Below, piece by piece: positions 139 to 25,337 of a DNA stretch of 64,000 nt. Numbering within the stretch: the stretch's first letter is position 1; each line of letters starts with the position of its first letter. The notes under the pieces are model-generated. The model was given only the letters and a program-made list of their open reading frames with translations, searched no databases and was not told the DNA's origin. The position numbers and the translations under genes were made by a program. This stretch comes from an uncultured Lachnospiraceae bacterium (lineage in GTDB: Bacteria; Bacillota; Clostridia; Lachnospirales; Lachnospiraceae), in NCBI GenBank assembly GCA_947178145.1, contig CAMWXE010000007.1, positions 1-64,000 on the forward strand, read 5' to 3'.

Positions 139-167
139 TTGAAAACGGCAAAATTTTAGAATATAAT
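139..167 (+). promoter_or_regulatory. Sigma-A promoter of the BREX-like operon
   Basis: TTGAAA at 139-144, a 17-base spacer and TATAAT at 162-167 form a near-consensus promoter about 90 bases before the first gene of the operon. Nothing else in 1-257 looks coding. A perfect 8-bp hairpin lies at 31-38 and 48-55 (ATGCTACA/TGTAGCAT, 9-base loop) but has no T-run, so its role is unknown. No second strong promoter was seen between the following seven genes, which suggests one transcript. Confidence 0.7.
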
Positions 168-257: not shown

Positions 258-2462
258 ATGGCAAGGCAAAAGCAGTGGGATAAGTATGAGGCGGCTATTC
301 TGCTTGATTACTATTTGCAGTATTTGGATGGTAAACTCACTCGTGAAAAAGCAATCCGAATCGTGTCGGCAAAACTAAGAAAGATGGCAGAAACCAAAAA
401 CATTTGTATTGATGAAATATATAGGAATACAAATGGGATTGCATTTCAAATGCACAGCATGGAGTCAGCATATAAAGGTTTTACGGTAATGAAGCCAGCC
501 ACCAAGCTGTTTATTGAAACGGTTAGGTTGCTAAAAAATGATAAGGAACAGTATAACAAACTACTGAAGGAGGCAAGAGAGATGGCTGAAGTGCCCCCAA
601 AAGATAGCCGGGAAGAACATCCTGCGATAGAAAGCGAAACTAAAAGTAGAGTAGCAGAACTTGAATTTGCAAAAGACACTGAGCTGTCAAAGGTACGGAA
701 TGAACAGGGCAAGGATGCAGCAAATGTAGTTACGAGAAGCAGGAACACCCCTAATGGCGATACTTTCTTTCGCTGGCTAAACGAAGAACAGGGTATGGCA
801 AGTTCTTCCTGTCGCAGCTATGTTTCTGCCATAAATACGGCGGAACGGTATGCAATAGAAAATAATTTTAACCATTGCATATTATATACGGACAATTATC
901 AGGAAGCCAAAGCAACTGCCGATGAGCTGTTTGAGGATTATTCCTTTATGGAATGTAATGATCAGCAGCACAACAGGTTAAGGACAGCAATCAATAAACT
1001 TTTGACATATATTGAAAATGGCGGAAATGATATTGTTGTACAAATACCCTCGGCTGATCTTGTACCATTTACTGAAATTCTTATCGAAAGGTTTCCGAAA
1101 GGGTATAGGATTGGTTCAACCATTGAGCTTAAAAGGTTTAAACGGTATTGGGAAGAACTTTATGATGTCAAAATTGATATGGATGATAGCAGTGTTGAGA
1201 AAAATATTGAACATTGTGGGATTATTCATGAAGAAAAGATATATATGCCGCAAAAAATGCTTGACGAGAATATGAAAGAAAAATTGTTTTCGTATATCAA
1301 CAATAGTTTTCAATCCGGCAAATCCGTCATCTATTATGAAGCCTTGTTTAAGGAGTTTTCGGATGATTTTTTTGGATATTGTATGTATAATGCAAGTATG
1401 CTCCATGCTTATTTGGATTATATGAATGATGGAAGTTACTTCGTTGGGAAAGATTATATTTTAAAGGATGCTTCTGTCAAGGTTGAGCCTTACGATGAAG
1501 TAAAAGAATGCCTTATAAGGCAGGCAGCCCCAATGGGATATGGTGAAATATTTGTTGCTCTTTCACATATTCCAGAGCAGAAAATAAGAAATATACTTGC
1601 ACAAAATGGCGAGTTTGTCAGCAATGGGCGGGGCGAATACTTTCATATAGACATCACGACTTTCAGTGATGATGAGATGGGGGATATAACAGAAATTATC
1701 GAAAACACGATTGCGGAAAAGCAGTTTATCAGTGGAAATGAATTAGTTGACAGCATAAAGAAAAAATATCCGTATGTGATTGAGCAAAATGCATTGCTAT
1801 CGGATATAGGTGTGAGGAATGCGATTAGGTACAAATTAAAGGACAAGTTTTCTTTCAATGGAAACATCATCAGTTCGAGCAAAAAGCCTTTATCCATGAT
1901 GGGAGTTTTTGCTGATTTTTGCAGACAAAGAGCCTCTTTTACGCTTGATGAGCTGAAAATATTTAAACAAGAGCTGGGTACTGAGATTTACTTTGATGCA
2001 GTGTATGAAAATTCATTAAGAATAAGTAAGAATGAGTTCGTTTCCAAAACACAGGCTTCTTTCAGACTAGAAGAAACAGATGCGGTAATAGACCGTTTTT
2101 GCGATGTAGATTATATTGCTATAAGAAAAATCAATCAATTTGGATTGTTTCCCGATGCTGGATTTAGCTGGAATAGTTTTTTGCTTGAACATTATGTTGC
2201 AATGTACAGCCCGAATTATAAACTGCTGCATTCCAATTACAATGAGGGTGCTTGCGTTGGCGGCATTGTAAAGAAATCTTCCGGCATAGACACATTTGAC
2301 GAGTTGGTAATTGATGTGCTTGCACGGAGCGGTCTTCCTTTGCAAAAGGAAACGGCATTGCAGTATCTATGCGATGAGGGCTATATGGCTCGAAGAAATT
2401 ATTCAGGCATCGAACAGCTGCTTATCAAGGCAAAAGAACTGAGAAACCAGAAGGGGCTTTAA
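258..2462 (+). CDS. Unrecognised large protein, first gene of the BREX-like operon
   Basis: This 734-residue soluble protein has no family I can name with confidence. The first 110 or so residues (W7, E11, LLDYY, then RNTNGIAFQMHSME near 60-75) resemble an N-terminal domain seen in some Firmicute DNA-acting proteins. Around residues 165-230 a segment (FFRWLNEEQG, SSSCRSYVSAIN) recalls the SAM-like core-binding fold of integrases. The C-terminal half is charged, helical and may hold winged-helix units; no nuclease, helicase or methyltransferase motif is visible. The start ATG follows GGGTGAAG. It lies 4 bases before brxP, so it should be made with the BREX proteins. A DNA-recognition or regulatory role is inference from context only. 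Confidence 0.7.
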   Translation: MARQKQWDKYEAAILLDYYLQYLDGKLTREKAIRIVSAKLRKMAETKNICIDEIYRNTNGIAFQMHSMESAYKGFTVMKPATKLFIETVRLLKNDKEQYNKLLKEAREMAEVPPKDSREEHPAIESETKSRVAELEFAKDTELSKVRNEQGKDAANVVTRSRNTPNGDTFFRWLNEEQGMASSSCRSYVSAINTAERYAIENNFNHCILYTDNYQEAKATADELFEDYSFMECNDQQHNRLRTAINKLLTYIENGGNDIVVQIPSADLVPFTEILIERFPKGYRIGSTIELKRFKRYWEELYDVKIDMDDSSVEKNIEHCGIIHEEKIYMPQKMLDENMKEKLFSYINNSFQSGKSVIYYEALFKEFSDDFFGYCMYNASMLHAYLDYMNDGSYFVGKDYILKDASVKVEPYDEVKECLIRQAAPMGYGEIFVALSHIPEQKIRNILAQNGEFVSNGRGEYFHIDITTFSDDEMGDITEIIENTIAEKQFISGNELVDSIKKKYPYVIEQNALLSDIGVRNAIRYKLKDKFSFNGNIISSSKKPLSMMGVFADFCRQRASFTLDELKIFKQELGTEIYFDAVYENSLRISKNEFVSKTQASFRLEETDAVIDRFCDVDYIAIRKINQFGLFPDAGFSWNSFLLEHYVAMYSPNYKLLHSNYNEGACVGGIVKKSSGIDTFDELVIDVLARSGLPLQKETALQYLCDEGYMARRNYSGIEQLLIKAKELRNQKGL

Positions 2463-2466
2463 AATT

Positions 2467-4785
2467 ATGTATTCGTATGAATGGGATATTAAAACCGGAG
2501 GCTTGCTATTGAACAGTTCCCCGCTGCCTTTCAGCAAAGAGCCGAGACCGGTTTACTATAAAGAATTAGACATCCTTGGATTTGATAAATATTGGAATTA
2601 TGACAAGAATGACGCTTACCCATATATGTGGGCAGAAGCAAATAACTATTGGTATAGAGGAAAGCTTGTCGCCAAAACAAAGGGAGGCTCATTATATTCA
2701 GCACCGGAACTGCTGATTGTGGAAGAACCTGAACCGGAGAATGCACCGCTTCGGTTTGTAGATGTGCCGGGGATGGTTGATAAAAATAAAGGATTGATAG
2801 AAAAACTGACACAGGATACCATAAAAAAGGTATTCAATACCTATGCCCGGTTCAAAGATAAGGTAGACGTTTTTTATGTGGCATTTAGCGGGGGGAAGGA
2901 CAGCATCGTAACACTTGATATTGTCCAAAGAGCGTTGCCTCACAACAGCTTCAAAGTGTTATTCGGCGATACTGGAATGGAGTTTCCGGATACTTATGAT
3001 ACGGTTGGGATAATAGAAAAAGAATGTCATCATCAAGGCATTGAGTTTATCAGAGCAAAATCAGATTTAAATCCGCATTGTACATGGAAACAATTTGGTT
3101 CTCCGTCAAAAGTTACAAGGTGGTGCTGCAGTGTGCATAAAACCTCGCCACAAATACTTGCTTTAAGGAATAATTTGGGCAAGATTGATTTTACAGGAAT
3201 GGCTTTTGTGGGCGTTAGAGCTAGTGAAAGTGCGTCAAGAAGTGAATATGACTATATCAGTTTAGGAGAAAAACATAAAGGGCAGTATAGCTGTAATCCG
3301 ATTCTTGAATGGAATGCGGCTGAATTATATTTATATGTTTATTCGGAAAATCTTCATTTGAACGAGGCATACAAAAAAGGGAACAATAGGGCTGGCTGTT
3401 TAGTATGCCCCAATGTATCTGAGAAAAATGCTTATTTTAGAAGAACCTGCTATCCAAAAGAAGTAGATGAGTATATGAATATAATTGCTGATTTATATAA
3501 AGAAAGCATTCCCGCAGAAGAAAAGATGAAAGAATTTTTGGAGAATACTGGATGGAAAGCACGTATGAACGGAAGGGATGTGTCTATTGACATTGGATGT
3601 ACGGAACTGATGTCGGGGGACAAGTATATCCTTAAAGTGAGAAAACCTAAAAACGATTGGAGAGAATGGATAAAAACGATAGGCGTTCTCTTAAATGAGT
3701 CTTCGCCGTATAGGATTGATTTTAGACGAAATGAGTATTCCTTTGAGGTTATTGAATTGGCTGACGGTTATGAAGTGGTGCTAGATAAATATCTTGCAAA
3801 AACGGCACCTTTATTTGTCAAATTATTAAAAAATGTGTTTCATAAAGCAGCGTGTTGTATTGGATGCCATGAATGCGAAGCAGATTGCCAAAAAGGATGT
3901 ATCACAATGATAAACGGCAAAGTAAAAATAAGTGAGAACTGCGTAAGATGTTCTCAGTGTCATAAGGTTGATAGAGGGTGCCTAATTTATAAATCGTTAG
4001 AGATGCCAAAAGGAGGGGCTAAAATGGAAACAAAAAGTTTAAATTGTTATTCCACTCATGCGCCAAAGAAAGAGTGGATTAACCAATATTTTTCACAAAA
4101 AGATGAATTTGTAACAAATAACTCATTGGGATCGCAGATGTTTAGTTTTTTCAAACGATTTTTAAGAGACGCAGAGCTCATTGATGGAGACTCTTTTAGT
4201 GAATTTGCAAAAGTAATTGATTATATTGGAATAGATGAGTTAGAAAGTTGGGGATTGATTTTGACCAATTTGGTGTACAGTCCGCAAATAAACTGGTTTG
4301 TGAAGAATGTCAAAATGAATGAAAAATCTTCAAAAGAATACATTACTTCTATGTTGGTTGATAGTGGAACGAATGAGAGGGCGGCTAATGATATATTTAG
4401 GTCGTTTGTAAGATTTGTTGAACTGCCATTTGCAGAAGTGGGCATGGGATTCTCTGAGAAAGAAAAGAATAGGGTTATATCTGTCACAAGAACTCCTTGG
4501 CAGAACCCTGACCCTCGTGTGATTCTTTACAGCTTGTACAAGTTTGCGGAGAACTGTGGAGATTATTACCAGTTCACCCTTTCCCGACTGTTAAATCATG
4601 AAATCGACAGCGACGGAGTAAGCCCTACGGAAATCTTCGGGCTTGACCGTGAACAAATGGAAAAGATACTGAACGGCTTGTCTGTAAATTATCCGGAGTT
4701 TATTGCCGTATCATTTACCTTGGACTTGGATAATATTACGTTGCGAAATGACAAGGCATCAAAAGATGTCCTTGAATTGTTTTAA
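2467..4785 (+). CDS. brxP: BrxP-like PAPS reductase / ferredoxin / DUF4007-like fusion (type 4 BREX)
   Basis: A 772-residue three-part protein. Residues 139-146 (AFSGGKDS) are the PP-loop of the PAPS reductase/DndC group, which bind ATP and act in sulfur chemistry. Cysteine pairs WCC near 219 and AGCLVC near 313 fit Fe-S binding as in DndC-like proteins. Residues 463-505 carry two ferredoxin-type [4Fe-4S] clusters (C464, C467, C470, C474; C492, C495, C498, C505). From about 520 to the end is a DUF4007-like region. BrxP is the marker of type 4 BREX, where it replaces the methyltransferase; DNA phosphorothioation-like modification has been proposed from the DndC likeness and is not shown here. 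An internal ribosome site at 4011 may yield the last domain alone. Confidence 0.82.
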   Translation: MYSYEWDIKTGGLLLNSSPLPFSKEPRPVYYKELDILGFDKYWNYDKNDAYPYMWAEANNYWYRGKLVAKTKGGSLYSAPELLIVEEPEPENAPLRFVDVPGMVDKNKGLIEKLTQDTIKKVFNTYARFKDKVDVFYVAFSGGKDSIVTLDIVQRALPHNSFKVLFGDTGMEFPDTYDTVGIIEKECHHQGIEFIRAKSDLNPHCTWKQFGSPSKVTRWCCSVHKTSPQILALRNNLGKIDFTGMAFVGVRASESASRSEYDYISLGEKHKGQYSCNPILEWNAAELYLYVYSENLHLNEAYKKGNNRAGCLVCPNVSEKNAYFRRTCYPKEVDEYMNIIADLYKESIPAEEKMKEFLENTGWKARMNGRDVSIDIGCTELMSGDKYILKVRKPKNDWREWIKTIGVLLNESSPYRIDFRRNEYSFEVIELADGYEVVLDKYLAKTAPLFVKLLKNVFHKAACCIGCHECEADCQKGCITMINGKVKISENCVRCSQCHKVDRGCLIYKSLEMPKGGAKMETKSLNCYSTHAPKKEWINQYFSQKDEFVTNNSLGSQMFSFFKRFLRDAELIDGDSFSEFAKVIDYIGIDELESWGLILTNLVYSPQINWFVKNVKMNEKSSKEYITSMLVDSGTNERAANDIFRSFVRFVELPFAEVGMGFSEKEKNRVISVTRTPWQNPDPRVILYSLYKFAENCGDYYQFTLSRLLNHEIDSDGVSPTEIFGLDREQMEKILNGLSVNYPEFIAVSFTLDLDNITLRNDKASKDVLELF
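4011..4026 (+). promoter_or_regulatory. Internal ribosome binding site and ATG within brxP
   Basis: AGGAGGGG at 4011-4018, five bases, then an in-frame ATG at 4024-4026 (residue 520) is stronger than most true start sites in this operon. It sits at the border between the ferredoxin and DUF4007-like parts, so translation could start here and give a separate 253-residue protein. It may also be a relic of two genes that fused. Confidence 0.55.
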
Positions 4786-4800
4786 GGAGGAGACAGCGAC

Positions 4801-7800
4801 ATGGCGCTTGATATTTATCGTCATTACTTTGACATTGACCCGGATTATTTTCCGGCAGTCAATGAATCGGTAATCAATAATAATCCGGATATGTGGAAAA
4901 AGTATTATCCACACGCTACTTTTGTGAAGCTGATTAAGGATACAGTGAGTGTTCTGCGCAGAGAGCAAAAACATTCCATTTGGGTGGAGGGCGCTTATGG
5001 CACAGGTAAATCCCACGCTGTATTAACCTTGAAAAAACTTCTTGATGTGTCCGAAGAAGAAACAAGGGAATACTTTCAGAAATTCCAAATGGATAATGAC
5101 CTTTTCAATAAACTGCAAAATGCTAAGAACAGTGGGGAGATTCTTACCGTACATAGATATGGTTCTTCCTCTATTCGTGGTGACCACAATCTTGTGTTTG
5201 CCATACAGGAAAGCATTGAAAAGGCACTGAAAGACAGGGGGATTGGGAACAAAGGCAACAGTGCTATGAAAGGAGCTATTGCAAAATGGCTTGAAGATTC
5301 TGCAAATAAGGGCTATTTCAATTCTCTTGTAACAGGGGAATATTCCAATTTATTTGGTGGTGATAATGCGGATAATATTTTAGAGAAGTTAAATGACTTG
5401 TCAGGTGATGCGCTGATTGCACTTATGGATAAAATCTTTAAGGTGGCTGACGAACGTCAGATTAAAGTTTTGTCGTTGGACACTACCGGTCTTGTGTCTT
5501 GGATAAAAGAGATTATTAAGGCAAACAATCTCAAAGCTATTGTATTCATATGGGATGAGTTTACAGAGTATTTTAATAATAATGCGAGAAGTCTTACTGG
5601 TTTTCAGGAAATCGCCGAGCTTAGTGAAACTGACCCGTTCTATTTAATTATTGTAACCCATAAAAGCGCCGGCCTATTTGATGATGCAGATAAGGATAAG
5701 TTTAAGATTCTTGACCGTTTTATCAAGCCGACCTGTATCATTGAACTTCCAGAAAACATGGCATTCCAGCTTATGGGAGCGGCTATGGAGAAAAATAAGG
5801 ATGAAGCAGTCAGTGCGGATTGGGAAATGACGGTTGATGATCTTTATGACAGAACCCATGCTTCCAGATCATTAGTGAAGAGCAGCGCCAATATCTCTGA
5901 TGATGAATTAAAAAATATTCTGCCTATCCACCCATACACGGCATTATTGCTCAAACATATTTCTTCTGCGTTTGATTCTAATCAGCGCAGTATGTTTGAT
6001 TTTATCAAAAATGACAGGGGCGATGAAATCAAGGGTTTCCAATGGTTTATTGACAACTATGGTCCGGACAATGAGAATCCCTTGCTTACAATAGATATGA
6101 TATGGGAATTTTTTTACGAAAAGGGAAAGGAATATCTTTCTCATGATATTCGTTCGATTTTGGACTGCTATTCCCATGCAGCTGCCAAACAGCTCAGTTA
6201 TGATGAAAAACGGGTTTTGAGAACAGTTCTTCTTTTGCAGGCAATCTCCCAAAAGGTGGGAGATTCTGTTGAGTTGTTTATTCCCAATGAAAAAAATATT
6301 AATAATGCCTTTGAAGGTTCGGATATGGATAATGGAGCTGCCGGAAGATGCGCGGAAAAGCTTGTCCGTGACGAAGTACTTTATAAAAAGCCTCTTGGCG
6401 GTGGACAGACACAATATTCTGCCTTAGTAAATGCCGGGGATATGGCGGCGATTGATAAATTTAAAGAAGAAGTCAATAAGAAATCCACATCGTCACTGAT
6501 TAATGAGGGGCAGGTTTCAGAGGCTGTTACATTGGGCGGTGCTTTAAAACTGCGTTATGAGATGAGATATGTTTCATCATCTGATTTTGATTCGACCATT
6601 CGGTTGTTGCGTAATCAGGAGGGCAGTTTTGCCAACAAAATAGTTGCTGTTGTATCCTTTGCAAAAGATGACAGCGAAAGCGTTGTACTTGGCAAAAAGA
6701 TTAAAAGCGCATTGGAAGATGGCAGCTATAAGATGATATTTATCGATACGTCTACTACTACGTTTGGAAAAGACGGCTATGAGCAGTATTGCGAAAATAT
6801 GGCACAGGCTATGTATTATCAGGGCAAAGAGAATAATTTGGCACGTCAATATGAAACGAATGCCAAAGAAGCGTTGAAAAAGTGGAAAAACCGTATTTCC
6901 AGTGGTGAGTTTGTTGTCTATACTTCTGAAAAACAAGATGGCGAGCGAGCAACAACGATTGATGCGCTGTATACTGCCCTGTCCAGCATTAATAGGAGCA
7001 AGTACAGGAATTGCTTGGAAGGCGCTTATACTGTGACGGATAATATGTATATGCCAAGTTCTTTAAAGCAAGGAGTTGCCTGTGGCATAAAGCAGGAAAC
7101 GCAGGGGACATTCAGATCTTCTAATCCTGCCACGAAGCTTGAGAATGCCATAGGGGAAGCTTGGAATTATCAGGGAAAGTATTGGGTGGATAAACCGCAC
7201 CTTTTGATTTCAAAAATTAAGAACAGGGTAGAAGAACTCATAAAAGAAGGCTTTGATAATGGCGGGCGTATCTCTATTGCGAGAATCTATGACGAGTTAA
7301 AGGCGGAGCCTTTTGGTTTTATGCCCTGCAATCTTTCTGCATTTGTGATGGGATTTGTATTGAAAGAATATGTTGATGGATTTAGTTGGAGCGATGGTCT
7401 TACGAATGATGTATTAACTGTGAATAAGCTGCAGGAAATGGTTGATGAGATTATCAAATTACAGATTACAGCGAATCCGAGGTACAAGGATAAATATATC
7501 GTGGCAATGACAGAAGAAGAAAAGGCTTTTAATGAGGCCACATCTGTTGCTTTTAGTATTTCAAAAAGTTTTTGCACATCGGTTGAACAAACGAGGGAGC
7601 GCATCCGTAGTAAGATGAAAGAATATACGTTTCCTATTTGGACGCTGAAATCAATCATTAGAAGTGAAAATACAAAAACAGACGAAGCAACTCTTGCGAA
7701 ACTCATCGACTATTACTGCGGCATCGCAAACAGCAGCAATATGGGGGTGGATCACACAAGTGATAATGACATTGCCTATGCGATTGGCAAGCTGTGTATT

Positions 7801-8994
7801 GCCAATAAGGATGCTGCTGCCGATTTAAGTACGCTTTTAAGCAAGGGAAAATGCACGGAAGGAATGAAAGCTTATCTGAAAGAGTTCGAGAACGGAGAAC
7901 TGGTTGCGCTGGCTGAAGAAGTCGGGGATGGCGGTCAGTATATCAACGTGCTTCGGAAAAAGTTTGATGCAGATGCGGCAAATTGGGTATGGAATCTTGA
8001 GACGGTACAGCAGAAGATAAGGGAAGTAATTTTGGAATATAAGATTATTGCGGAAAGCAATAAAGTCATTTCAAAAAGTACGAATTTCGACAGCACGATT
8101 AGGGAATGGTGTGATAAGTGCCAGTATATTAGGGTTTCCTATCTGGCTGCAAAGAACTACTTGGACGATTTTGGCGCATTCTTGGAAATGCTTTATCATG
8201 TCAAAAAATCCGGGGTAATACTGGATTCACAGAGGCAGAAATTCTATGCTCTGCTTTTTGCAAACGAAGAAAATTTCAGGGCTTTCTACGGAAATCAAGT
8301 TGATTTGTTTAAGAAAGTCTGTGAATTTTATATTGAGGGATTTACAGAAGAAGAAATTCGTGAAATTTACAATATGATTCCTGCTGGTTCATTCACAAAG
8401 GAAAAGACAGAGTATACCACCATTGTAAACGACAAAGTCGAGGAATATAAGCGAAACAGCAAGTCTGCGAAGTTGAAAGCGTTTTGGAAAGAAAAAACCA
8501 AAACAGATACTCCGAGGGAGTGGTCTAAGAAGTATAAAATGCCTATTTTATGTATGGTGGAGGATAAGGATATTCAAGTGGCAAGGGCGGCATTCGGGGC
8601 TGTCAATCAAATGCATCCTGATGAAATTTCCATAGATAGGGCGGCTGCTTATTTCCAAACCGCTGGTTTTTTTGCTAGGTTGGAAGATGAGAACGCAAGA
8701 AACAGGGCATTTGTTGAAACGATTATTAAGGATTATGATGTGATGCTGAATGACATTGATGAAGTGAAACGGTATTTGGACAGCAGAATCACAGCGGATC
8801 CTTACGATTGGTTTGGTTTGCCGGAAGTCGATAAGAAGCTAAAGCAGCTTGCTGAGGCAAAATACAATCAAGGCGGCTGTGACAAGGCGCTTGAAAAGAT
8901 AGACAATATGGAATTGGCAGATGTGAAGCGGTACTTAAAAGATCTTATCAAAGATGATATGATTGTGGGCATGGCGATTATCAAAGGAAACTAA
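4801..8994 (+). CDS. brxC: BrxC/PglY-type BREX ATPase
   Basis: A 1397-residue P-loop ATPase with Walker A GAYGTGKS at residues 64-71 and a Walker B-like IVFIWDEF at 247-254. The size and position directly before pglZ match BrxC/PglY, the large ATPase present in all BREX types and needed for both host modification and phage defence. Long charged helical stretches follow the ATPase domain. The start ATG follows AAGGAGGAGA after a 15-base gap from brxP, and pglZ follows 11 bases after the stop. The family of P-loop proteins is certain; the type 4 assignment rests on the neighbours. Confidence 0.87.
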   Translation: MALDIYRHYFDIDPDYFPAVNESVINNNPDMWKKYYPHATFVKLIKDTVSVLRREQKHSIWVEGAYGTGKSHAVLTLKKLLDVSEEETREYFQKFQMDNDLFNKLQNAKNSGEILTVHRYGSSSIRGDHNLVFAIQESIEKALKDRGIGNKGNSAMKGAIAKWLEDSANKGYFNSLVTGEYSNLFGGDNADNILEKLNDLSGDALIALMDKIFKVADERQIKVLSLDTTGLVSWIKEIIKANNLKAIVFIWDEFTEYFNNNARSLTGFQEIAELSETDPFYLIIVTHKSAGLFDDADKDKFKILDRFIKPTCIIELPENMAFQLMGAAMEKNKDEAVSADWEMTVDDLYDRTHASRSLVKSSANISDDELKNILPIHPYTALLLKHISSAFDSNQRSMFDFIKNDRGDEIKGFQWFIDNYGPDNENPLLTIDMIWEFFYEKGKEYLSHDIRSILDCYSHAAAKQLSYDEKRVLRTVLLLQAISQKVGDSVELFIPNEKNINNAFEGSDMDNGAAGRCAEKLVRDEVLYKKPLGGGQTQYSALVNAGDMAAIDKFKEEVNKKSTSSLINEGQVSEAVTLGGALKLRYEMRYVSSSDFDSTIRLLRNQEGSFANKIVAVVSFAKDDSESVVLGKKIKSALEDGSYKMIFIDTSTTTFGKDGYEQYCENMAQAMYYQGKENNLARQYETNAKEALKKWKNRISSGEFVVYTSEKQDGERATTIDALYTALSSINRSKYRNCLEGAYTVTDNMYMPSSLKQGVACGIKQETQGTFRSSNPATKLENAIGEAWNYQGKYWVDKPHLLISKIKNRVEELIKEGFDNGGRISIARIYDELKAEPFGFMPCNLSAFVMGFVLKEYVDGFSWSDGLTNDVLTVNKLQEMVDEIIKLQITANPRYKDKYIVAMTEEEKAFNEATSVAFSISKSFCTSVEQTRERIRSKMKEYTFPIWTLKSIIRSENTKTDEATLAKLIDYYCGIANSSNMGVDHTSDNDIAYAIGKLCIANKDAAADLSTLLSKGKCTEGMKAYLKEFENGELVALAEEVGDGGQYINVLRKKFDADAANWVWNLETVQQKIREVILEYKIIAESNKVISKSTNFDSTIREWCDKCQYIRVSYLAAKNYLDDFGAFLEMLYHVKKSGVILDSQRQKFYALLFANEENFRAFYGNQVDLFKKVCEFYIEGFTEEEIREIYNMIPAGSFTKEKTEYTTIVNDKVEEYKRNSKSAKLKAFWKEKTKTDTPREWSKKYKMPILCMVEDKDIQVARAAFGAVNQMHPDEISIDRAAAYFQTAGFFARLEDENARNRAFVETIIKDYDVMLNDIDEVKRYLDSRITADPYDWFGLPEVDKKLKQLAEAKYNQGGCDKALEKIDNMELADVKRYLKDLIKDDMIVGMAIIKGN

Positions 8995-9005
8995 GGAGGA
9001 CAGGG

Positions 9006-11276
9006 ATGAACCTGGATGCTTGTATAAAAAAGATAACGAAATATTTGGCATCAGAAAATGCCCAGCCGTTACTTGTAAATGTTCAAAATGGCATGGATTT
9101 AGACAGGCTCAAAACATATTTTGACGTGGATGGCAATGAGTTTATTGATGCTTCAAGATTCTGCAATAAAGATGAACTGCCACGCATTGAAGTTTTGCTT
9201 GCGGATATTTCCATGAAAAAGAAAAATTGCTTTCTGTTAGGGTTGACTTCTTTTTTGAGGTTCTATGGAGAGGAAGAAATAAGGAAACATTTAGCAAACA
9301 TTGTCAACATGACTATTGCCGGTCATGTTGTAGTTGTGGTTTATCAATGTGACAGGCAGTTAAGTTTCTCCGACCCAAGGCTGTCACGCAGCATTTGCTT
9401 ACTTGACGGCGATGCGGTAGCGTTACCGAAATTAGTATTTGTGTCAAATGAACTTTCAGTTGCCTTATCCGAATATAGTATTGTCGGGATTGATGCCATT
9501 GCAAAAGAAATTGAAAGCCCAAATGTAGAAAAAATATTCGTGGTTACAACAAAGCATAAGGAAATGTATCCACAGTCAATATATTCTATTACTGATATGA
9601 GCAAGGCTTATGAGGTGATAATCGGGAAAGATGCCACGCTATCACATATTGATGAAGTGATGGGAACTTCAAGCCAATGGGATTATCTGCTTTCCCTGAT
9701 TGACACAGGAAAAACATTTATAGAAATATGTAACAGTGAGTTTGGAAATTATCAGAGTCTGGAAATTGCAATTTCAAGCTATAGTGGGTATTCTGAACAG
9801 AAAAAGTGGCTGTATTTTATTGCATTGAAACTGTTTGGAGCTGCCAATAACAGTTGTCTGGCTGTTGCTGCCAGCCATGCTGCTGCGTATTCAAAACTAA
9901 TACGGGAAGTGTATAGAGGTATTTTGGAAAAGAAACATACAGACAGGGATTTTGATAATTTTTATCAGACAAGGAAGTCCCTGCTGATAGCTTTTGGGAA
10001 TCCTGTAGATGAAGTAGTTGATTTTTGCAAAGTGGTTTTGCAGAAAGAAGAAAAGGCTATTTATTATTTGACGGATAATACAAGGCAGGAAAAGGAACTT
10101 ATTTTCTCGTTACTTGAAAAGTATTATCAGAGCATGGAAAAGAGCGGGATTGAGAAAATATTATCCGTGGTATATCCTGATTTGTGTGCGTATATCCGTG
10201 ATTACAGATATAATATTCCTTTGCTCGACAGATATTTTTCTCTGTATACATATAGTAAGATAATCAACAAAGTAGCACCGGAATTAGAGGAGATTGTGGA
10301 AAAGCAGGCTGTGCTTCGTGAGTACAATTTGTTGCTGGAACCTCGTACCGTAAAGATGGATGAGATAGATAAAACTGCTTCGCAGTTGTATTTTATGGAT
10401 GCAATGGGTGTTGAATACTTATCATACATTCTTACAAAATGCAAGGATAAAGAGTTGATGGCTAACATTACAATCTGTTGCGCCAATCTGCCTTCCATTA
10501 CAAGCAAAAACAAGGAGTTTGTTGCAGAGTTTGAAATGCGGGGGCTTGTGGTTAATCCGATTAAGGAACTGGATGAAATCAAACATCATGGTATCAACGA
10601 TTACGATTACAGGCAAAAGAAGCAGCCGATCCATATAATTAGGGAGTTAGAAATCATCAATGAGGCTCTTGATAATATTAAATTGAAATTATCACAGGGG
10701 CTTTGTAATAAGGCGATTATGGTATCTGACCACGGCGCAAGCAGGCTGGCAGTCATACACGAAACTGAAAATATGTGGGAAATGTCGTCTAAGGGGGAAC
10801 ATTCCGGAAGATGCTGCCCAAAATCGGATGCTGATGTTAAGAGTGAATTTGCCACAGAAGAAGATGGCTTTTGGGTTCTCGCCAATTATGACCGCTTTAA
10901 AGGCGGAAGAAAGGCAAATGTAGAGGTACACGGTGGGGCAACTTTGGAGGAAGTTGTTGTTCCGATTATTGAAATAACAAAATTCGATGACGAAATAGAA
11001 GTATCCATTGTTGATAAAGTGATTACCGTAAGCTTTAGAAAAAAAGCGGCTATCCGATTATTCTCCAAAACAAAGCTGAAAAATGTGACGGTTTTAGTTG
11101 AGGGAGAATATTATGAGGCAAAAGAACTGGATAATAATTTGTATCTCGTGGATTTGCCAAAGTTAAAAAAGGCAAAAAAGTATAATGTTGATGTTTTTGC
11201 ATCAAATAACTTGGTTGCTCCGGGGTTGGCTTTTGAAATAAAAAAAGAAAGCTCCCAAGAAAAAGAGTTGCTGTAA
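9006..11276 (+). CDS. pglZ: PglZ, alkaline-phosphatase-fold BREX protein
   Basis: A 756-residue protein with the PglZ domain in its C-terminal half: a metal-binding YFMDAMGVEY segment near residue 462, VSDHGASRL with D575 and H576, and HGGATLEEVVVP from H642. These are hallmarks of the alkaline-phosphatase superfamily as found in PglZ, the signature gene of BREX. The N-terminal 400 residues are helical and without known motifs. Start ATG follows AAGGAGGACAG. PglZ is thought to act with BrxC and the modification component; its substrate is not known. It is one of the surest identifications in the island. Confidence 0.9.
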   Translation: MNLDACIKKITKYLASENAQPLLVNVQNGMDLDRLKTYFDVDGNEFIDASRFCNKDELPRIEVLLADISMKKKNCFLLGLTSFLRFYGEEEIRKHLANIVNMTIAGHVVVVVYQCDRQLSFSDPRLSRSICLLDGDAVALPKLVFVSNELSVALSEYSIVGIDAIAKEIESPNVEKIFVVTTKHKEMYPQSIYSITDMSKAYEVIIGKDATLSHIDEVMGTSSQWDYLLSLIDTGKTFIEICNSEFGNYQSLEIAISSYSGYSEQKKWLYFIALKLFGAANNSCLAVAASHAAAYSKLIREVYRGILEKKHTDRDFDNFYQTRKSLLIAFGNPVDEVVDFCKVVLQKEEKAIYYLTDNTRQEKELIFSLLEKYYQSMEKSGIEKILSVVYPDLCAYIRDYRYNIPLLDRYFSLYTYSKIINKVAPELEEIVEKQAVLREYNLLLEPRTVKMDEIDKTASQLYFMDAMGVEYLSYILTKCKDKELMANITICCANLPSITSKNKEFVAEFEMRGLVVNPIKELDEIKHHGINDYDYRQKKQPIHIIRELEIINEALDNIKLKLSQGLCNKAIMVSDHGASRLAVIHETENMWEMSSKGEHSGRCCPKSDADVKSEFATEEDGFWVLANYDRFKGGRKANVEVHGGATLEEVVVPIIEITKFDDEIEVSIVDKVITVSFRKKAAIRLFSKTKLKNVTVLVEGEYYEAKELDNNLYLVDLPKLKKAKKYNVDVFASNNLVAPGLAFEIKKESSQEKELL

Positions 11277-11300
11277 TATAATGGAACGAGGAGGATTCAT

Positions 11301-12746
11301 ATGCAGGAAAAACTAAGAGAATGCTTTGATGAGATGGTTGTTTATAAAGACTTGAAGAAAAGCAATTTCTTTTCGGCTTTAAGTCTGCCGTCATTCCTTC
11401 GAGACTGGCTGCTGAAAAAATTTGGCGATGATGAGGGGAATTTTGATATAGACGAACTTACGGATTTTATTCATACTTACCTTCCGCGCAAAGACGAATG
11501 GATAAGCATAAAAAACAGGATTGTTTATGAAAATGAGAGGGTAAAGATTCTTACGAAGATTTCTGTTGATATAAACATCAAGAATCAGGAAATAACTTTC
11601 GCCTTGCCGGACTTTGGCTTAACTAATAAAGAAACCATCATTGAACCATATATTTGGGATGAATGCAAGGACGAGCTTGTTAAGGGAAAGGAAACATGGG
11701 GCGTAGTTGAACTAGGCTATAGATTGCCTGATGAGGAATTGAAAATTCAGGGCAAAATAAAACTGACAGGTTTCACAAATTTTTGTCCATACACGATTGA
11801 CCTTGATTATTACAAAGATGTAAGAAACGAGTTTGCCACGAGCGAGTGGATTGATGTTTTGCTTGGGTCAATTGACTATAATGCTGCCGGATATGAAGAT
11901 GAACATCAAAAATTAACTATGCTGACCCGCTTGCTGCCATTCATAGAAAAAAGACTCAACTTAATAGAGCTTGCACCAAAAGGCACAGGAAAATCATACT
12001 TATTTGGACGTGTGAGTAAATTCGGATGGCTTTCTTCTGGTGGTGTAATGTCAAGAGCAAAGATGTTTTACGACATCAGCAAACGGACACAAGGGTTAGT
12101 CTGCAATAATGATTACGTTGCTTTAGATGAAGTTCAGACGATTTCCTTCACGGATATGGATGAAATGAGGGCTGCATTGAAGGGTTATATGGAATCAGGT
12201 GTTTTTACTGTTGGAAACTATGAGGGTGTAGCAGATTCGGGTATCATCTTGCTTGGGAATATCAGTCAGGACAATATGGACGAATATAAAAGTATGTTTT
12301 CTGAATTGCCTGTCACGTTTCATGAAAGCGCATTATTGGACAGATTTCATGGATTTATTAAAGGGTGGGAAATACCAAGGATGCATGATGATTTGAAGAT
12401 TTCCGGCTGGGCATTAAATTCGGAGTATTTTTGTACAATTATGCATCTGCTTCGTGAAGATGCAAGTTACCGTGCTATTGTTGATGCCTTGGTGGAAGTT
12501 CCAGAACATTCTGATACAAGGGATACGGAAGCTGTAAAAAGGATTTGTACTGCATATTTGAAATTACTGTTCCCAAATGTTCGCTCTGTTGCTGATGTAA
12601 ATATCCGTGAGTTTAACCGCTATTGTCTGCGCCCGGCTGTAAAAATGAGGGGAATCATCAAGATTCAGCTCGGAATTCTTGACCCTGAATTTAAGGGAAA
12701 AAGCGTACCGAGTTTCATGGTGAGGGATGTTAGTAATGAGAATTGA
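11301..12746 (+). CDS. brxL: BrxL-like AAA+ protein, short form
   Basis: A 481-residue protein with Walker A PKGTGKS (G228-S232) followed by YLFGRVS and an ALDEVQTISF Walker B, typical of the BrxL ATPase (Lon-like) family. Well-studied BrxL proteins are around 680 residues with a C-terminal Lon-protease-like domain; here the protein ends soon after the AAA+ part, and I see no serine-lysine protease segment. Either type 4 BrxL is naturally short or the gene has lost that part. Ring-forming DNA binding is known for BrxL elsewhere. The start ATG follows ACGAGGAGG. The next gene overlaps its 3' end. Confidence 0.83.
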   Translation: MQEKLRECFDEMVVYKDLKKSNFFSALSLPSFLRDWLLKKFGDDEGNFDIDELTDFIHTYLPRKDEWISIKNRIVYENERVKILTKISVDINIKNQEITFALPDFGLTNKETIIEPYIWDECKDELVKGKETWGVVELGYRLPDEELKIQGKIKLTGFTNFCPYTIDLDYYKDVRNEFATSEWIDVLLGSIDYNAAGYEDEHQKLTMLTRLLPFIEKRLNLIELAPKGTGKSYLFGRVSKFGWLSSGGVMSRAKMFYDISKRTQGLVCNNDYVALDEVQTISFTDMDEMRAALKGYMESGVFTVGNYEGVADSGIILLGNISQDNMDEYKSMFSELPVTFHESALLDRFHGFIKGWEIPRMHDDLKISGWALNSEYFCTIMHLLREDASYRAIVDALVEVPEHSDTRDTEAVKRICTAYLKLLFPNVRSVADVNIREFNRYCLRPAVKMRGIIKIQLGILDPEFKGKSVPSFMVRDVSNEN

Positions 12747-12933
12747 TTGTGTTATCTGTGGAAAGAAAGACTTAGGAAAAGATACAATAGGCATCAATAG
12801 GAAGCTGCTTGGAACAGATATAACCAACTTTTATTGTATGGAATGTCTTGCAGAATATTTGGGGTGTACAGTCGAAGAATTGCTTGACAAAATTGAAGAA
12901 TTTAAGGAAGAAGGCTGTACGCTTTTTGCTTGA
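12736..12933 (+). CDS. Small cysteine-rich protein between brxL and the desulfurase
   Basis: A 65-residue protein with CVICGK near residue 5 and CMECLAEYLGC near 34, then an acidic helix and a C-terminal GCTLFA. The two CxxC pairs suggest a zinc or Fe-S knuckle. ATG at 12736 is preferred because GAGGG lies 9 bases before it; an upstream in-frame ATG at 12727 has no such site. It overlaps the end of brxL by 11 bases and the desulfurase starts 8 bases after its stop, so the pair is probably translationally coupled. A role as sulfur carrier or partner of the desulfurase is inference from position and cysteines. Confidence 0.72.
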   Translation: MRIDCVICGKKDLGKDTIGINRKLLGTDITNFYCMECLAEYLGCTVEELLDKIEEFKEEGCTLFA

Positions 12934-12941
12934 GGATGCTG

Positions 12942-14081
12942 ATGAGTATGAAGATGTTTATTTATGCTGATAATGCAGCGACAACGAAACTTGATACGGA
13001 TGCTTTTGAAGCCATGAAACCCTATCTGCTCAACGAATACGGTAATGCTTCGCAGCCTTATTCATTTTCAAGAAAAAGCAGAGAAGGCTTGAAAGAATCA
13101 AGAAAAATCATTGCTGAATGTATCAATGCCCTGCCTGAAGAAATATATTTTACTTCAGGTGGGACAGAAAGTGATAATTGGGCAGTTAAGGGGATGTTTT
13201 TTTCAGATAGAAACAAAGGAATCATCACATCAGAGATAGAACACCATGCGGTTCTGCGCAGTGCGAAAGCCGTTGAAAATATGGGATGTGACGTGGTTTA
13301 TCTCAAACCCACAACAGAAGGTATAATAACAGCAGAAGAATTATCAGGCACAATTACGGAAAGAGTGGGCTTAGTTTCTATAATGACAGCGAATAATGAA
13401 ATAGGAACCATACAGCCAATTAAGGAATTATCACAGTTGGCACATAAGACAGGAGCTTTATTTCACACAGATGCTGTACAAGCTGTGGGTCATATAGGGA
13501 TTGATGTGAAAGATTTAGGCGTTGATATGTTATCAGCATCAGCACATAAGTTTAATGGTCCGAAAGGTGTTGGATTTTTGTATATAAAAAAAGGTACGCC
13601 GATTATTCCATATATTGATGGCGGCGCACAGGAATCATCGTTAAGAGCAGGGACGGAGAATGTTGCTTTAATTGTTGGTATGGCATATGCATTACAGAAG
13701 AATTGCCAATGCATGGATGCAAATATAAATAAAGTCAGGGAACTGGAGAATGATTTTATTGGTCGGCTTGACATAAACGGTAACAAAAGCATTGTAAGGA
13801 ATGGCGGAAATAATACCCTTCCGGGAATTGCCAGCCTGTCATTTGGGAATGAGGACGGAGAGGCAATGCTCCATCGGTTGGACTTAAGGGGGATATGCAT
13901 ATCAACCGGTTCTGCTTGCAATAGTGGGAAAAGCACCGTTTCCCATGTCTTGCGAGCGATAGGTTTGGATGAAAAATATGTAAAAGGGACTATACGGATT
14001 TCTTTTGGGAAAGATAATACCAAAGAAGAAGTCCGTTATATTGCTGATGAAATAAATAAAATCGCTATGAACCGGGGATGA
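12942..14081 (+). CDS. Class V cysteine desulfurase (IscS/NifS/DndA-like)
   Basis: A PLP enzyme of 379 residues that takes sulfur from cysteine as a protein persulfide. Visible are YADNAATT at the N-terminus, the EIEHHAVL histidine segment, the lysine for PLP in SAHKFNGPKG (K203), and the catalytic loop STGSACNSG with C326. Several in-frame starts exist; ATG 12942 has GAGG six bases upstream. In DND systems DndA or a host IscS plays this part for DndC, so its presence last in an operon with BrxP supports a sulfur route in this BREX system. The same enzyme could also serve general Fe-S assembly. Confidence 0.88.
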   Translation: MSMKMFIYADNAATTKLDTDAFEAMKPYLLNEYGNASQPYSFSRKSREGLKESRKIIAECINALPEEIYFTSGGTESDNWAVKGMFFSDRNKGIITSEIEHHAVLRSAKAVENMGCDVVYLKPTTEGIITAEELSGTITERVGLVSIMTANNEIGTIQPIKELSQLAHKTGALFHTDAVQAVGHIGIDVKDLGVDMLSASAHKFNGPKGVGFLYIKKGTPIIPYIDGGAQESSLRAGTENVALIVGMAYALQKNCQCMDANINKVRELENDFIGRLDINGNKSIVRNGGNNTLPGIASLSFGNEDGEAMLHRLDLRGICISTGSACNSGKSTVSHVLRAIGLDEKYVKGTIRISFGKDNTKEEVRYIADEINKIAMNRG

Positions 14082-14947: not shown

Positions 14948-15568
14948 ATGAACGAAACGGAACAGATAACAACTTTCAGATTAATTCATACAGCAGCTAT
15001 GCAGGAATTTCTTGAAAAAGGCTTTAAGTCTGCTTCTTTACGAAATATTGTCAAGACAGCAGGTGTTACAACAGGTGCTTTTTACGGTTACTATGACAGC
15101 AAGGAAGATTTATTTGAAGCATTGGTTAGTGAACAGTATGATTATTTTATGAATTGCTTCTGCAAGGCACAACAGGAGTTTGCAGATATACCGCTGGAGG
15201 AACAGCCCAATAATCTCAGCACTACTTCTGGTGAGTGTATGCACGAAATGCTTTTATATGCTTATGCGCATTTGAATGAATTTAAACTCATTCTCTGCCA
15301 TTCAGAGGGAACACGTTTTTCAAAACTCATTGATGAGATGGTGGAAATTGAAACCAAAGCAACGCATGACTATCTGGAAGTGCTTAAAAAGTTGGGCAGA
15401 CCGTCACCGCCTATTGATGAACGCTTAGAACATATATTGATTACGGGAATGTTCAACACTTTTTTTGAGTTGATCATACATGAAATGCCGCTTGAAGAAG
15501 CGGAACACTATCTAAAAGAAATGAGGGCTTTTTATACTGCTGGCTGGATGAAAATTATGGGGCAATAA
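14948..15568 (+). CDS. TetR/AcrR family repressor
   Basis: A 206-residue regulator with the N-terminal TetR helix-turn-helix (SLRNIVKTAGVTTGAFYGYY, residues about 27-46) followed by a ligand-binding helical domain that accepts varied small molecules in this family. It starts 19 bases after a perfect palindrome that overlaps its promoter region, so it likely represses itself and perhaps the ABC genes 200 bases downstream. Ligand unknown. The TetR-ABC-ABC arrangement is common in Firmicute accessory regions. Confidence 0.88.
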   Translation: MNETEQITTFRLIHTAAMQEFLEKGFKSASLRNIVKTAGVTTGAFYGYYDSKEDLFEALVSEQYDYFMNCFCKAQQEFADIPLEEQPNNLSTTSGECMHEMLLYAYAHLNEFKLILCHSEGTRFSKLIDEMVEIETKATHDYLEVLKKLGRPSPPIDERLEHILITGMFNTFFELIIHEMPLEEAEHYLKEMRAFYTAGWMKIMGQ

Positions 15569-15603
15569 AAAACCGGGTAAGCCCGATTGCGGGTAAACTC
15601 GTT

Positions 15604-15630
15604 GGGGCAATGTGCCCTATAATTTTTAGA
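15604..15630 (+). terminator. Weak terminator after tetR
   Basis: GGGCA at 15605-15609 pairs with TGCCC at 15613-15617 around a 3-base loop, followed by TATAATTTTT. The stem is only five pairs, so termination may be partial. Confidence 0.35.
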
Positions 15631-15634
15631 CATA

Positions 15635-15653
15635 GGTTAGTTTATGCTAACTT
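15635..15653. promoter_or_regulatory. GTTAG-N6-CTAAC palindrome before the ABC genes
   Basis: The palindrome GTTAG TTTATG CTAAC lies 115 bases upstream of the first ABC gene. Its half sites recall DtxR/IdeR iron boxes, but the six-base centre is wider than the classic site. A second CTAACC at 15667-15672 can also pair with GGTTAG, so an RNA role is possible. Regulation by iron is a guess. Confidence 0.35.
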
Positions 15654-15767
15654 AAAAACAACCTGACTAACCACAAAAGGATATTCGGGGACGGTTTATG
15701 CTGTCCTCATTATCATAACCTTATTGAGCAGGATCAATAAGCTAAAAATTTTCAAGGAGGTTTTTCA

Positions 15768-17606
15768 ATGAAAAAACAGTCTAATTTATCAAGATTGATG
15801 GGCTATGCCGGAGCGCATAAGGTATTGACCTATCTTTCCTGGGTACTGTCTGTAATGAGTGCGCTGTTAGCCCTTGTGCCTTTTTGGTATATTTGGCGTA
15901 TCATTCACGACATACTGGAAGTTTCCCCGGACTTTTCACAGGCGGGGAATATCACACGCTACGGCTGGTCTGCCGTATTGTTTGCGGTTATATCTATTGT
16001 CGTTTATATAGCCGCCTTGATGTGTTCACATATAAGTGCGTTTCGGGTTGCCGCTAATATCCGGAAAGAACTAATGCGGCATATTATTTCCCTGCCGCTT
16101 GGCGTGACAGATAAATATGGAAGCGGAAAGCTGCGGAGAATCGTAAATACTTCCAGTACCGCAACGGAAACATATCTTGCACACAGGCTGCCCGATAAAG
16201 CAGGAGCAATTGCAACGCCCATAGGATTACTTTTTTTACTTTTTGCATTTGACTGGCGGTTAGGGCTGTTAAGCCTTGTCCCTGTTGTACTTGGTTTTTT
16301 GATTATGATGAAAATGACCGGGAAAAGTATGGAACAGAAAATGAAAGAATATCAAAATGCACTTGCTGATATGTCGAACGAAGCTGTTGAATATGTGAGA
16401 GGAGTACCCGTTGTAAAAACTTTCGGGCAGACGATCTTCTCTTTCAAACGCTTCAAAGGTGCGATTGACAATTACGAAAAATGGGTTATTGAATACACAA
16501 AAGCGTTACGACTTCCCATGATGTTCTATACGACTGCAATCAATGGCGTGTTTGCGTTCCTGATTGCCGGAGGCATCATCTTTACAAGGGGCGGTGTGAC
16601 AAATGAATTACTGTTAAATCTTATCTTTTACATTGTAATTACGCCTGTTATTGGAACAACATTGACGAAGATCATGTTTATGAGTGAGGATTCCATGATT
16701 GTGAATGATGCAATCAGCAGGATTGATGAAGTGTTAAACGAAAGCCCGCTTCCGGAAAGCAAAAGCATAAATGCTTTAACAGCAAATGTGCCGATGGATA
16801 ACTCTATTACATTAGAACACGTCACTTATAGTTATGATGGAAATAAAAACGCACTGAATGATATTTCCCTGTCAATTCAATCGGGACAGACCGTCGCATT
16901 CGTAGGAGCGTCCGGTGGCGGCAAGACTACGCTAGCCAATATTGTAACACGTTTTTTTGACCCGCAAAAGGGACGTGTGCTGATCGGAAATACCGACATA
17001 CGGGATATTCCAAAAGAAACGCTGATGAATAAAGTGTCCTTTGTGTTTCAGAACAGCCGCCTGATAAAAACGTCTATACTGGAAAATGTGCGTATGGGGA
17101 AACCGACAGCGACACGGGAGGAAGTTGCCAGCGCACTAAAAGCGGCGCAGTGCATGGATATTATCGAAAAGCTGCCAGACGGAGTAGATACGGTTGTCGG
17201 TACGAATGGTATATATTTATCCGGTGGGGAGCAGCAGAGGATAGCCATTGCCCGTGCTGTTCTGAAAAATGCGCCTATCCTGATTCTTGATGAAGCGACC
17301 GCATTTGCCGATCCTGATAATGAAGTGCGTATCCAGCAGGCGTTATCTGCCCTGTCAAAAGGTGAGTTAAAAGACAATTCACCTGGAAAAACGGTTATTA
17401 TGATTGCACACAGGCTTTCATCAATCACGGAGGCAGACTGCATTTATGTACTGCAGGACGGTGCGATTGCTGAAAGCGGCACACACAGCAAGCTGATAGA
17501 GAAAAATGGAATATTTACAAATATGTGGAAAAATTATTCCGAAGCGGCAGCATGGCGACTTTCTTCCGAAGTTGCCAGGAAGATTGAGAAGGAGGTAGAG
17601 GCATGA
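15768..17606 (+). CDS. ABC transporter, fused membrane and ATPase domains (YbtP/IrtA-like)
   Basis: A 612-residue half-transporter of the exporter fold. The N-terminal 330 residues hold about six membrane helices; the ATPase has Walker A GASGGGKTT (380-388), signature LSGGEQQR and a Walker B ILILDEATAFADPDNE. The ATAFADPDNE sequence is typical of the YbtP/YbtQ and IrtAB group, which import siderophores despite the exporter fold, though drug or peptide export is equally possible. Start ATG follows CAAGGAGG. It overlaps the next gene by 4 bases (ATGA), so the two probably form one heterodimer. Confidence 0.88.
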   Translation: MKKQSNLSRLMGYAGAHKVLTYLSWVLSVMSALLALVPFWYIWRIIHDILEVSPDFSQAGNITRYGWSAVLFAVISIVVYIAALMCSHISAFRVAANIRKELMRHIISLPLGVTDKYGSGKLRRIVNTSSTATETYLAHRLPDKAGAIATPIGLLFLLFAFDWRLGLLSLVPVVLGFLIMMKMTGKSMEQKMKEYQNALADMSNEAVEYVRGVPVVKTFGQTIFSFKRFKGAIDNYEKWVIEYTKALRLPMMFYTTAINGVFAFLIAGGIIFTRGGVTNELLLNLIFYIVITPVIGTTLTKIMFMSEDSMIVNDAISRIDEVLNESPLPESKSINALTANVPMDNSITLEHVTYSYDGNKNALNDISLSIQSGQTVAFVGASGGGKTTLANIVTRFFDPQKGRVLIGNTDIRDIPKETLMNKVSFVFQNSRLIKTSILENVRMGKPTATREEVASALKAAQCMDIIEKLPDGVDTVVGTNGIYLSGGEQQRIAIARAVLKNAPILILDEATAFADPDNEVRIQQALSALSKGELKDNSPGKTVIMIAHRLSSITEADCIYVLQDGAIAESGTHSKLIEKNGIFTNMWKNYSEAAAWRLSSEVARKIEKEVEA

Positions 17607-23883: not shown

Positions 23884-24264
23884 ATGATTCAGATTTGTGT
23901 GCTTGCCATAGCAGGTCTTTTTGCAGCGCTTGTCATCAAAAAAGACAAGCCGGAGTTTGCGACGCTGATCATTATTCTCGTGAGTTTTTTCATTGCGGCC
24001 AGAATCCTTGCAGTGCTGGGCAATGCGGTGGAGGAGCTGGAGGAGTGGGAGGCTGCGCTGGGCGGGAATATCGCATATGTATCACTGCTCTTAAAAATCA
24101 TAGGTATCACATATGTGTGTGATTTCGCGTCAAACTTATGCAAGGATTCCGGGTATTCGGCACTCAGCAACCACATTGAGCTTTTTGGAAAAGTTGCGAT
24201 CATGGTGGCAGGTTTTCCGATTATACGGATCATGATTGACATGTTAGAGGGAATGATGCGATGA
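23884..24264 (+). CDS. spoIIIAD: SpoIIIAD
   Basis: A 126-residue membrane protein with about four hydrophobic segments and the family stretch YVCDFASNLCKDSGYSALSN. Start follows GGAGG. Its stop overlaps the spoIIIAE start by 4 bases (ATGA), which couples the two. Confidence 0.92.
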   Translation: MIQICVLAIAGLFAALVIKKDKPEFATLIIILVSFFIAARILAVLGNAVEELEEWEAALGGNIAYVSLLLKIIGITYVCDFASNLCKDSGYSALSNHIELFGKVAIMVAGFPIIRIMIDMLEGMMR

Positions 24265-25325: not shown

Positions 25326-25337
25326 AAGGGAGGGGCT

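Follow-up and report, generated by a model that had tools for sequence, protein, structure and literature searches.

We analyzed a 64,000-nucleotide stretch of DNA (the window) from an uncultured Lachnospiraceae bacterium (GenBank assembly GCA_947178145.1, contig CAMWXE010000007.1, positions 1 to 64,000), whose list of open reading frames (ORFs) places seven closely packed forward-strand ORFs at 258..14081, in the order ORF1-brxP-brxC-pglZ-brxL-Zn68-cysteine desulfurase. With middling confidence, we read this operon as type 4 BREX from a single brxP lineage, in which sulfur marking by BrxP is helped by the small protein Zn68 and the first gene, ORF1, encodes a core DNA-recognition or adaptor subunit. 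Both the chemistry of sulfur insertion and the role of the mark are established for BREX-4, Dnd and Ssp systems, and we know of no account of how BREX-4, which has no recognition domain of the methyltransferase type, picks its DNA sites. ORF1, as a clade-wide core subunit with an exchangeable front end, would be a testable candidate for this choice.

Phosphorothioation by BREX-4 is published, as are a linked desulfurase and a small zinc-finger gene (PMC12839542, section 34), and a passage of PMC11931770, citing Yuan et al., counts brxPCZL as one of three phosphorothioate-making gene families. The DND-like modification proposed in a preliminary description of this DNA, made from the sequence alone, is essentially correct for BREX-4 but was already in print. 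The sulfur link and the desulfurase and zinc-finger genes being known, the apparently new part is the ORF1 subunit of one clade. That description had left ORF1 unexplained as an unrecognised first gene, and no library we scanned names it. The BREX-4 section of PMC12839542 is silent on ORF1, which may be drawn in figure 8D or the supplements of that paper, and ORF1 is apparently undescribed in print.

ORF1 is linked to brxP

Loci were mapped from two separate draws, by ORF1 and by brxP, and the genome searches drew from the window's own phylum (L, G and C numbers are our handles for loci, genomes and contigs). In all but one of the 24 BREX-4 loci that hold ORF1, brxP follows it directly (23 loci), with a gap of -8 to 48 bases; in the exception, L047, a 238-aa gene stands between the two. 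Since L006 nearly duplicates the window and L089 nearly duplicates L008, the 24 loci amount to about 22 independent ones. Not all of them are complete: in L091 a contig end leaves a 95-aa stub of ORF1, L089 has ORF1 in two pieces, L093 and L103 have a broken brxP, and the brxP of L097 is cut to 57 residues. The break in L103 is an insert with two 438-aa ORFs (L103:6656-12007), and the remaining operon genes there are open.

Among 98 relatives, the search by ORF1 returned four genomes, two of them with the match next to brxP (G000, G003); G014 holds a relic and G068 a weak match, with brxP not in the 11 kb fetched. ORF1 was next to brxP in all three matches among genome contigs, all five among viral contigs and the single one among phage records. 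Eleven of 398 phylum genomes gave matches, the eight strongest of which (E 1e-100 or better) were all next to brxP; for the three weak ones (G100, G228, G320) no BREX locus was seen, G320 being unmapped. In the same genus as the window, ORF1 residues 1-65 abut desulfurase residues 137-378 in another frame (L011:4122-4938, minus strand), apparently the scar of an operon deletion.

In the draw by brxP, the PADLOC BrxP profile yielded 16 loci at E 2.4e-206 or better from the 398 phylum genomes, and the window BrxP yielded seven at E 1e-100 or better from 391 class genomes, one of them the window itself; the latter search favours near relatives. Together these make 22 distinct loci, 12 of which hold ORF1 (G000, G269:C43, G108, G257, G405, G140, G432, G632, G630, G731, G825 and G711). 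Those without a recognisable ORF1 are in G396, G348, G269:C30, G308, G307, G404, G375, G333, G147 and G599. The profile matched 367 of the 398 genomes at E 0.001, and matches weaker than 2.4e-206 were left unmapped save three outside the 22: G381 has brxP in pieces and no ORF1, G331 looks Ssp-like, and G361 has 57 brxP residues at a contig end, with ORF1.

ORF1-bearing loci fall in one brxP clade, and the constant region of ORF1 co-diverges with the core genes

A quick tree was built from 40 BrxP rows (L006, L097 and L059 left out; SH-aLRT support, no bootstrap). All 22 ORF1-bearing rows fall in one clade of 28 (SH-aLRT 99), hereafter clade A, whose remaining six rows are four phage proteins, L055 and L058, and 11 of the 13 BrxP rows without ORF1 lie outside it. 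L060 and L183 were flagged as long branches. The presence of ORF1 takes at least two changes on this tree when the phage rows are left out, and three with them.

Pairwise distances were compared for 18 loci, or 17 (134 pairs) once the near copy L089 was dropped, with 2000 permutations. Distances of ORF1 residues 266-734, its constant region, follow those of PglZ and BrxC closely (rank r 0.91 each; 17 loci, p 0.0005), and also those of BrxP (0.85), and follow those of BrxL less well (0.71). For the N-terminal part the values are 0.55 and 0.56 with BrxC and PglZ and 0.62 or less overall. All permutation p values were 0.0005 or 0.0010. These results suggest that the constant region behaves as a core gene and the N-terminus more as a part exchanged between systems, and ORF1 would be a conserved subunit of one BREX-4 brxP clade. 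For the desulfurase, whose co-divergence was not used, only seven loci were available, giving r 0.06-0.33 against the core genes and 0.57 against the N-terminal part of ORF1.

ORF1 is a predicted winged-helix protein with a modular N-terminus

The window ORF1 has no Pfam or NCBIfam match above cut-off, no PDB match by sequence profile (best E 0.12), no tblastn match among plasmids and no sigma-70 domain at E 0.1 (Pfam). No PADLOC-DB model matches it either, so that PADLOC annotation would miss it. In the predicted model, residues 266-734 form a tandem winged-helix array, and the structure matches are mostly winged-helix proteins, judging by their titles. No nuclease or methyltransferase family was found in ORF1 with Pfam or PADLOC, and the matches to the model are again mostly winged-helix by title, with parts of the model hardly probed. 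Against a profile of the constant region the window ORF1 scores 641 bits, being itself among the rows of that profile. A relationship by descent between the winged-helix part of ORF1 and residues 720-925 of BrxC (P 0.0023, with a probability of just 12%) was rejected and kept as a lead only.

Relatives range from 594 to 1449 aa, fragments aside, and N-terminal DNA-binding domains exceed the Pfam cut-off in six of the 15 ORF1 proteins scanned. Sigma region 4 is present in L047, L048 and L097, and Phage_int_SAM in L066 and L053 only, a region where the window ORF1 has no Pfam match. The L062 protein has an N-terminal alpha-CTD (4.8e-27) and sigma region 4 (9.7e-10). According to section 23 of PMC12839542, PglW of BREX type 2 has several winged helices together with a domain resembling the alpha-CTD of RNA polymerase; L062 ORF1 appears to make the same combination and matches the PglW profile weakly (E 0.0098). 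It differs from PglW in that the scans of ORF1 proteins turned up neither a kinase nor a nuclease domain.

Other genes occupy the ORF1 position, and ORF1 relatives occur outside BREX

Two loci without ORF1, L051 (14630-16108, minus strand) and L059 (3478-4920), carry, directly 5' of brxP, a gene for a sigma-70 factor that has regions 1.1 to 4, and L057 has a fragment related to it in the same slot. The genes upstream of brxP in L054, L046 and L094 are unrelated, and an archaeal plasmid locus (L182) has no gene close upstream. In L110 and L055 the upstream genes are related to each other over their N-terminal halves. Those of L055, L058 and L110 were tried as ORF1 homologues, matched the constant region weakly (14, 11 and 6 bits) and were counted as without ORF1. 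A profile comparison of these three with ORF1 gave P 0.0021 and probability 13%, and in another search the L055 gene reached 24 bits, mostly in the N-terminal part; the L055 and L058 genes may be a diverged ORF1 or a replacement.

In G228 (L095:4041-11243), a 958-aa ORF1 relative heads a PbeABCD-like operon, followed by genes for a PbeA helicase and a PbeC/DndD-like ATPase rather than by brxP. The protein matches the constant-region profile at 41 bits, versus 420-649 for full-length BREX-linked ORF1, nearly all of which had gone into that profile as rows; a helix-hairpin-helix (HhH) domain is above cut-off, and alpha-CTD and sigma region 4 are both just below. Because no DndC was found in this genome at E 0.001, we do not call the operon a phosphorothioation system. 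A 506-aa protein elsewhere (L096:8397-9914, minus strand) resembles residues 199-643 of L047 ORF1, with a sub-threshold sigma region 4; no BREX locus was seen there.

Zn68 is a probable partner of BrxP and the desulfurase an optional part

Zn68 was sought by profile on six frames and the desulfurase by tblastn, with 1.7 to 8.5 kb of downstream sequence, L047 aside. Zn68 is present in 12 of the 13 clade-A loci reaching past brxL (absent in L049) and in five of the ten other BREX-4 loci. For the desulfurase the counts are nine of 12 (L047 being too short) and one of ten. The tie of ORF1, Zn68 and the desulfurase to brxP, which the preliminary description had drawn from their spacing, is upheld across the clade. 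Its notion of an own sulfur supply was overstated, as the assembly (6.8% contaminated) has two further NifS/IscS-type desulfurases, on C15 above and on C18 below the NifS cut-off, and the operon copy is missing in three of 12 clade-A and nine of ten other BREX-4 loci. Judged by gene content, the linked desulfurase is an optional part of BREX-4 loci.

The CxxC, CxxC and GCxLF motifs are kept in all 17 aligned Zn68 rows, and DUF2197 and helix-turn-helix (HTH) matches are below cut-off. The window Zn68 has 68 aa from the first ATG or 65 aa from the Met at residue 4. In L052, Zn68 sits between brxP and brxC.

No relative was confirmed when viral contigs were scanned with a single BrxP protein; an alignment-based scan, taken to its best 80 matches, found phage relatives. 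Some of these contigs encode BrxP-like proteins, 574-578 aa long, with no DUF4007 part and with Zn68 at the C-terminus (79 and 72 bits with the Zn68 profile), and the phage BrxP-like proteins nest in clade A of the BrxP tree. L106 and L107 have a second BrxP-like gene after the first, and L107 also encodes an exonuclease, an endolysin, a tail fibre and a reverse transcriptase (PHROGs). A phage scan with the fusion as query returned 21 loci, 13 of them matching residues 1-577 or 97-577; several of the 13 are near copies or already-seen contigs, with the fusion profile-checked in L104, L106, L107 and L109 only, and one (L195) is the same contig as L108, where the BrxP-like protein lacks Zn68. 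This natural fusion is the strongest indication that Zn68 and BrxP work together, and Zn68 is probably the partner of BrxP. The phage proteins possibly serve self-marking of phage DNA or act as decoys, and the fusion points both to a partner protein of BrxP and to a possible phage use of BREX-4 chemistry.

Proposed mechanism and alternative explanations

Sulfur from cysteine, released by the linked or a housekeeping desulfurase, would reach BrxP via Zn68 or with its aid, Zn68 being a putative small zinc/cysteine partner whose C-terminal Cys may act as a relay. BrxP would then put phosphorothioate into host DNA, as is established for the family, and the BrxC-PglZ-BrxL machine would, as family knowledge has it, distinguish marked from unmarked DNA and block phage replication. 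The constant winged-helix array of ORF1 may dock on the BrxC/PglZ complex and on DNA, with the exchangeable N-terminal part as a DNA-reading head that helps choose the sites or states acted on. The computed basis for this scheme is gene content, linkage, restriction to one clade in the sample, the predicted fold class, the modular N-terminus, co-divergence and the phage Zn68-BrxP fusion. We regard as tentative, and on balance unlikely, an extension of it by analogy, in which ORF1 is an HsdS-like exchangeable target-recognition subunit with integrase or transcription heads, and phages have captured BrxP and Zn68 in fused form for self-marking or for poisoning the system.

Several results weigh against the scheme. 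Recognisable ORF1 is missing from ten of the 22 brxP-drawn loci, so BREX-4 is possible without it, and ORF1-like proteins also occur outside BREX, so that docking on BrxC would not be universal. Nine of the 15 ORF1 proteins scanned, the window's included, have no DNA-binding domain above the Pfam cut-off, the N-terminal module of L008 modelled alone reached pLDDT 65.5 with no Foldseek match at E 0.001, and the fold matches to UFL1 and SelB score TM 0.12-0.17 over the whole query. The N-terminal part of ORF1 also correlates significantly with the core genes, joint inheritance likewise yields rank correlation, and once PglZ is taken into account the correlation between ORF1 and BrxC drops to a partial r of 0.37. 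The subunit role of ORF1 is what we infer by computation from sequences and models, and the sulfur mark in this operon is what we infer from knowledge of the family.

The main rival, which we consider unlikely on balance, is that ORF1 is the transcription regulator of the operon, binding its own promoter and controlling brxP and the rest. ORF1 is the first gene, the sigma region 4 and alpha-CTD modules of some relatives come from the transcription machinery, and L051 and L059 have complete sigma-70 genes in the same place. A promoter-like site precedes ORF1 in the window (Table 1) and in L006; the scan was by consensus match only and found 51 sites across all 14.4 kb, versus 41.9 expected from shuffled sequence. 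Within 311 bases before ORF1, L008 has two inverted repeats, both imperfect (one of 22 nt at 73%, one of 17 nt at 71%), that could be an operator, and none was found in the 331 bases before ORF1 in L006. We also judge the ORF1 proteins large for a regulator, and co-variation of the constant region with BrxC and PglZ is not required of a pure regulator; none of these objections is decisive. A role for Zn68 as a separate HTH-type regulator rather than a BrxP partner seems quite improbable to us. The small zinc-finger protein is likened to HTH-type regulators in PMC12839542 (in the part that treats it), and Zn68 has a sub-threshold match to NirdL-like_HTH (6.1e-4, 19.8 bits, cut-off 27); its fusion to BrxP-like proteins in phages and its position directly 3' of brxP in L052 speak for partnership.

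It is also rather unlikely, in our judgement, that ORF1 is a phage sensor or trigger that, on recognising transcription complexes of a phage or DNA entering the cell, turns on PglZ/BrxL, with no role in modification. The exchanged N-terminus is as expected in an arms race, and an ORF1 relative heads the PbeA/PbeC-like operon of G228, where DndC was not found; the exchange is expected equally of a site-recognition head. We think it very improbable that this genome carries a decayed or silent copy of the operon that leaves no sulfur mark. Related loci are broken (brxP in L093, L103, L057 and L059; ORF1 and brxC split in L089), but all seven window genes are open, the brxP motifs are intact and a second isolate retains the operon as far as its locus extends.

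Gene content and surroundings of the operon

Neighbouring genes of the operon are spaced by -20 to +24 bases (Table 1). BrxP is identified by its PADLOC profile (5.1e-249), and its SGGKDS motif (141-146) and Cys 464, 467, 470, 474, 492, 495, 498 and 505 are invariant in 13 of 13 aligned BrxP; the DUF4007 match, at 22.9 bits, is under the cut-off of 27. PglZ matches NF033445 (BREX-4 PglZ) at 448 bits versus a cut-off of 140. The desulfurase matches SspA/DndA/NifS-type profiles at E 1e-126 to 1e-128, under the NCBIfam cut-offs of single equivalogs. Among the seven genes no methyltransferase was found with Pfam, PADLOC or NCBIfam profiles and no DndD/E or SspE with PADLOC. For DndC (TIGR03183; cut-off 290.4) the best score in the genome is 19.8 bits, on C58, and BrxP scores 17.9. 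With a BREX-4 PglZ, BrxP replacing a methyltransferase, and BrxC and BrxL in one operon, the system is type 4 BREX; the ORFs and profiles confirm the preliminary description in this and in its seven-gene, methyltransferase-free operon.

The window shares with published BREX-4 all four core genes in order, the short BrxL, and the desulfurase and small zinc-finger gene of PMC12839542 (section 34), and adds ORF1 at the head of the operon, an addition seen in just a single brxP clade. It resembles Ssp (SspABCD) and Dnd systems in that BrxP is related to SspD/DndC and in its C-terminus to SspB, BrxC to SspC and the desulfurase to DndA/SspA. Unlike those systems, it unites ferredoxin and DUF4007-like parts in one BrxP chain and has PglZ and BrxL.

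Table 1. Positions of the operon genes, ORF1 parts and other features (window coordinates unless a locus is given)
Feature	Position	Strand	Description
Promoter-like site TTGAAA-17-TATAAT	139..167	+	11/12 consensus match; best + strand site of the stretch
ORF1	258..2462	+	734 aa; first gene; modular protein of DNA-binding type; no known family; model pLDDT 82.8
ORF1 residues 1-111	258..590	+	Helical N-terminal domain, found in only some relatives; from alignment and model (helices 9-111)
ORF1 residues 166-253	753..1016	+	Helical segment; integrase SAM-like likeness judged by eye from sequence
ORF1 residues 266-734	1053..2459	+	Constant region; predicted tandem winged-helix array; from model, conservation and co-divergence
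brxP	2467..4785	+	772 aa; PP-loop PAPS-reductase-like, 8-Cys ferredoxin part, C-terminal DUF4007/SspB-like part
brxC ATPase	4801..8994	+	1397 aa; PADLOC 2.8e-298
pglZ, BREX-4 type	9006..11276	+	756 aa; NF033445 6.4e-134
brxL, short form	11301..12746	+	481 aa; TIGR02688 7.9e-124
Zn68	12727..12933	+	Zinc-ribbon-like small protein; CxxC, CxxC, C-terminal GCxLF
Cysteine desulfurase, DndA/SspA/NifS type	12930..14081	+	383 aa, TTG start
Phage BrxP-like loci	L106:2403-5750, L107:10001-13348, L104:888-2609, L109:1-2352		Fusion checked by profile

The contig ends 257 bases upstream of ORF1, at the window start, and L006, from Lachnospiraceae isolate C77, provides 956 upstream bases. L006 repeats ORF1 through BrxL residue 386, where the locus stops, at 97-100% identity per gene; because of this near-identical copy, that part of the operon is not an assembly artefact. 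Beyond the operon, 14948-19333 and 24261-27188 hold a TetR-type regulator gene ahead of two ABC-type ORFs (the ABC type judged by eye), then the sporulation genes SpoIIIAE and SpoIIIAH. These are chromosomal genes adjoining the BREX operon, and the GC content of the operon is lower.

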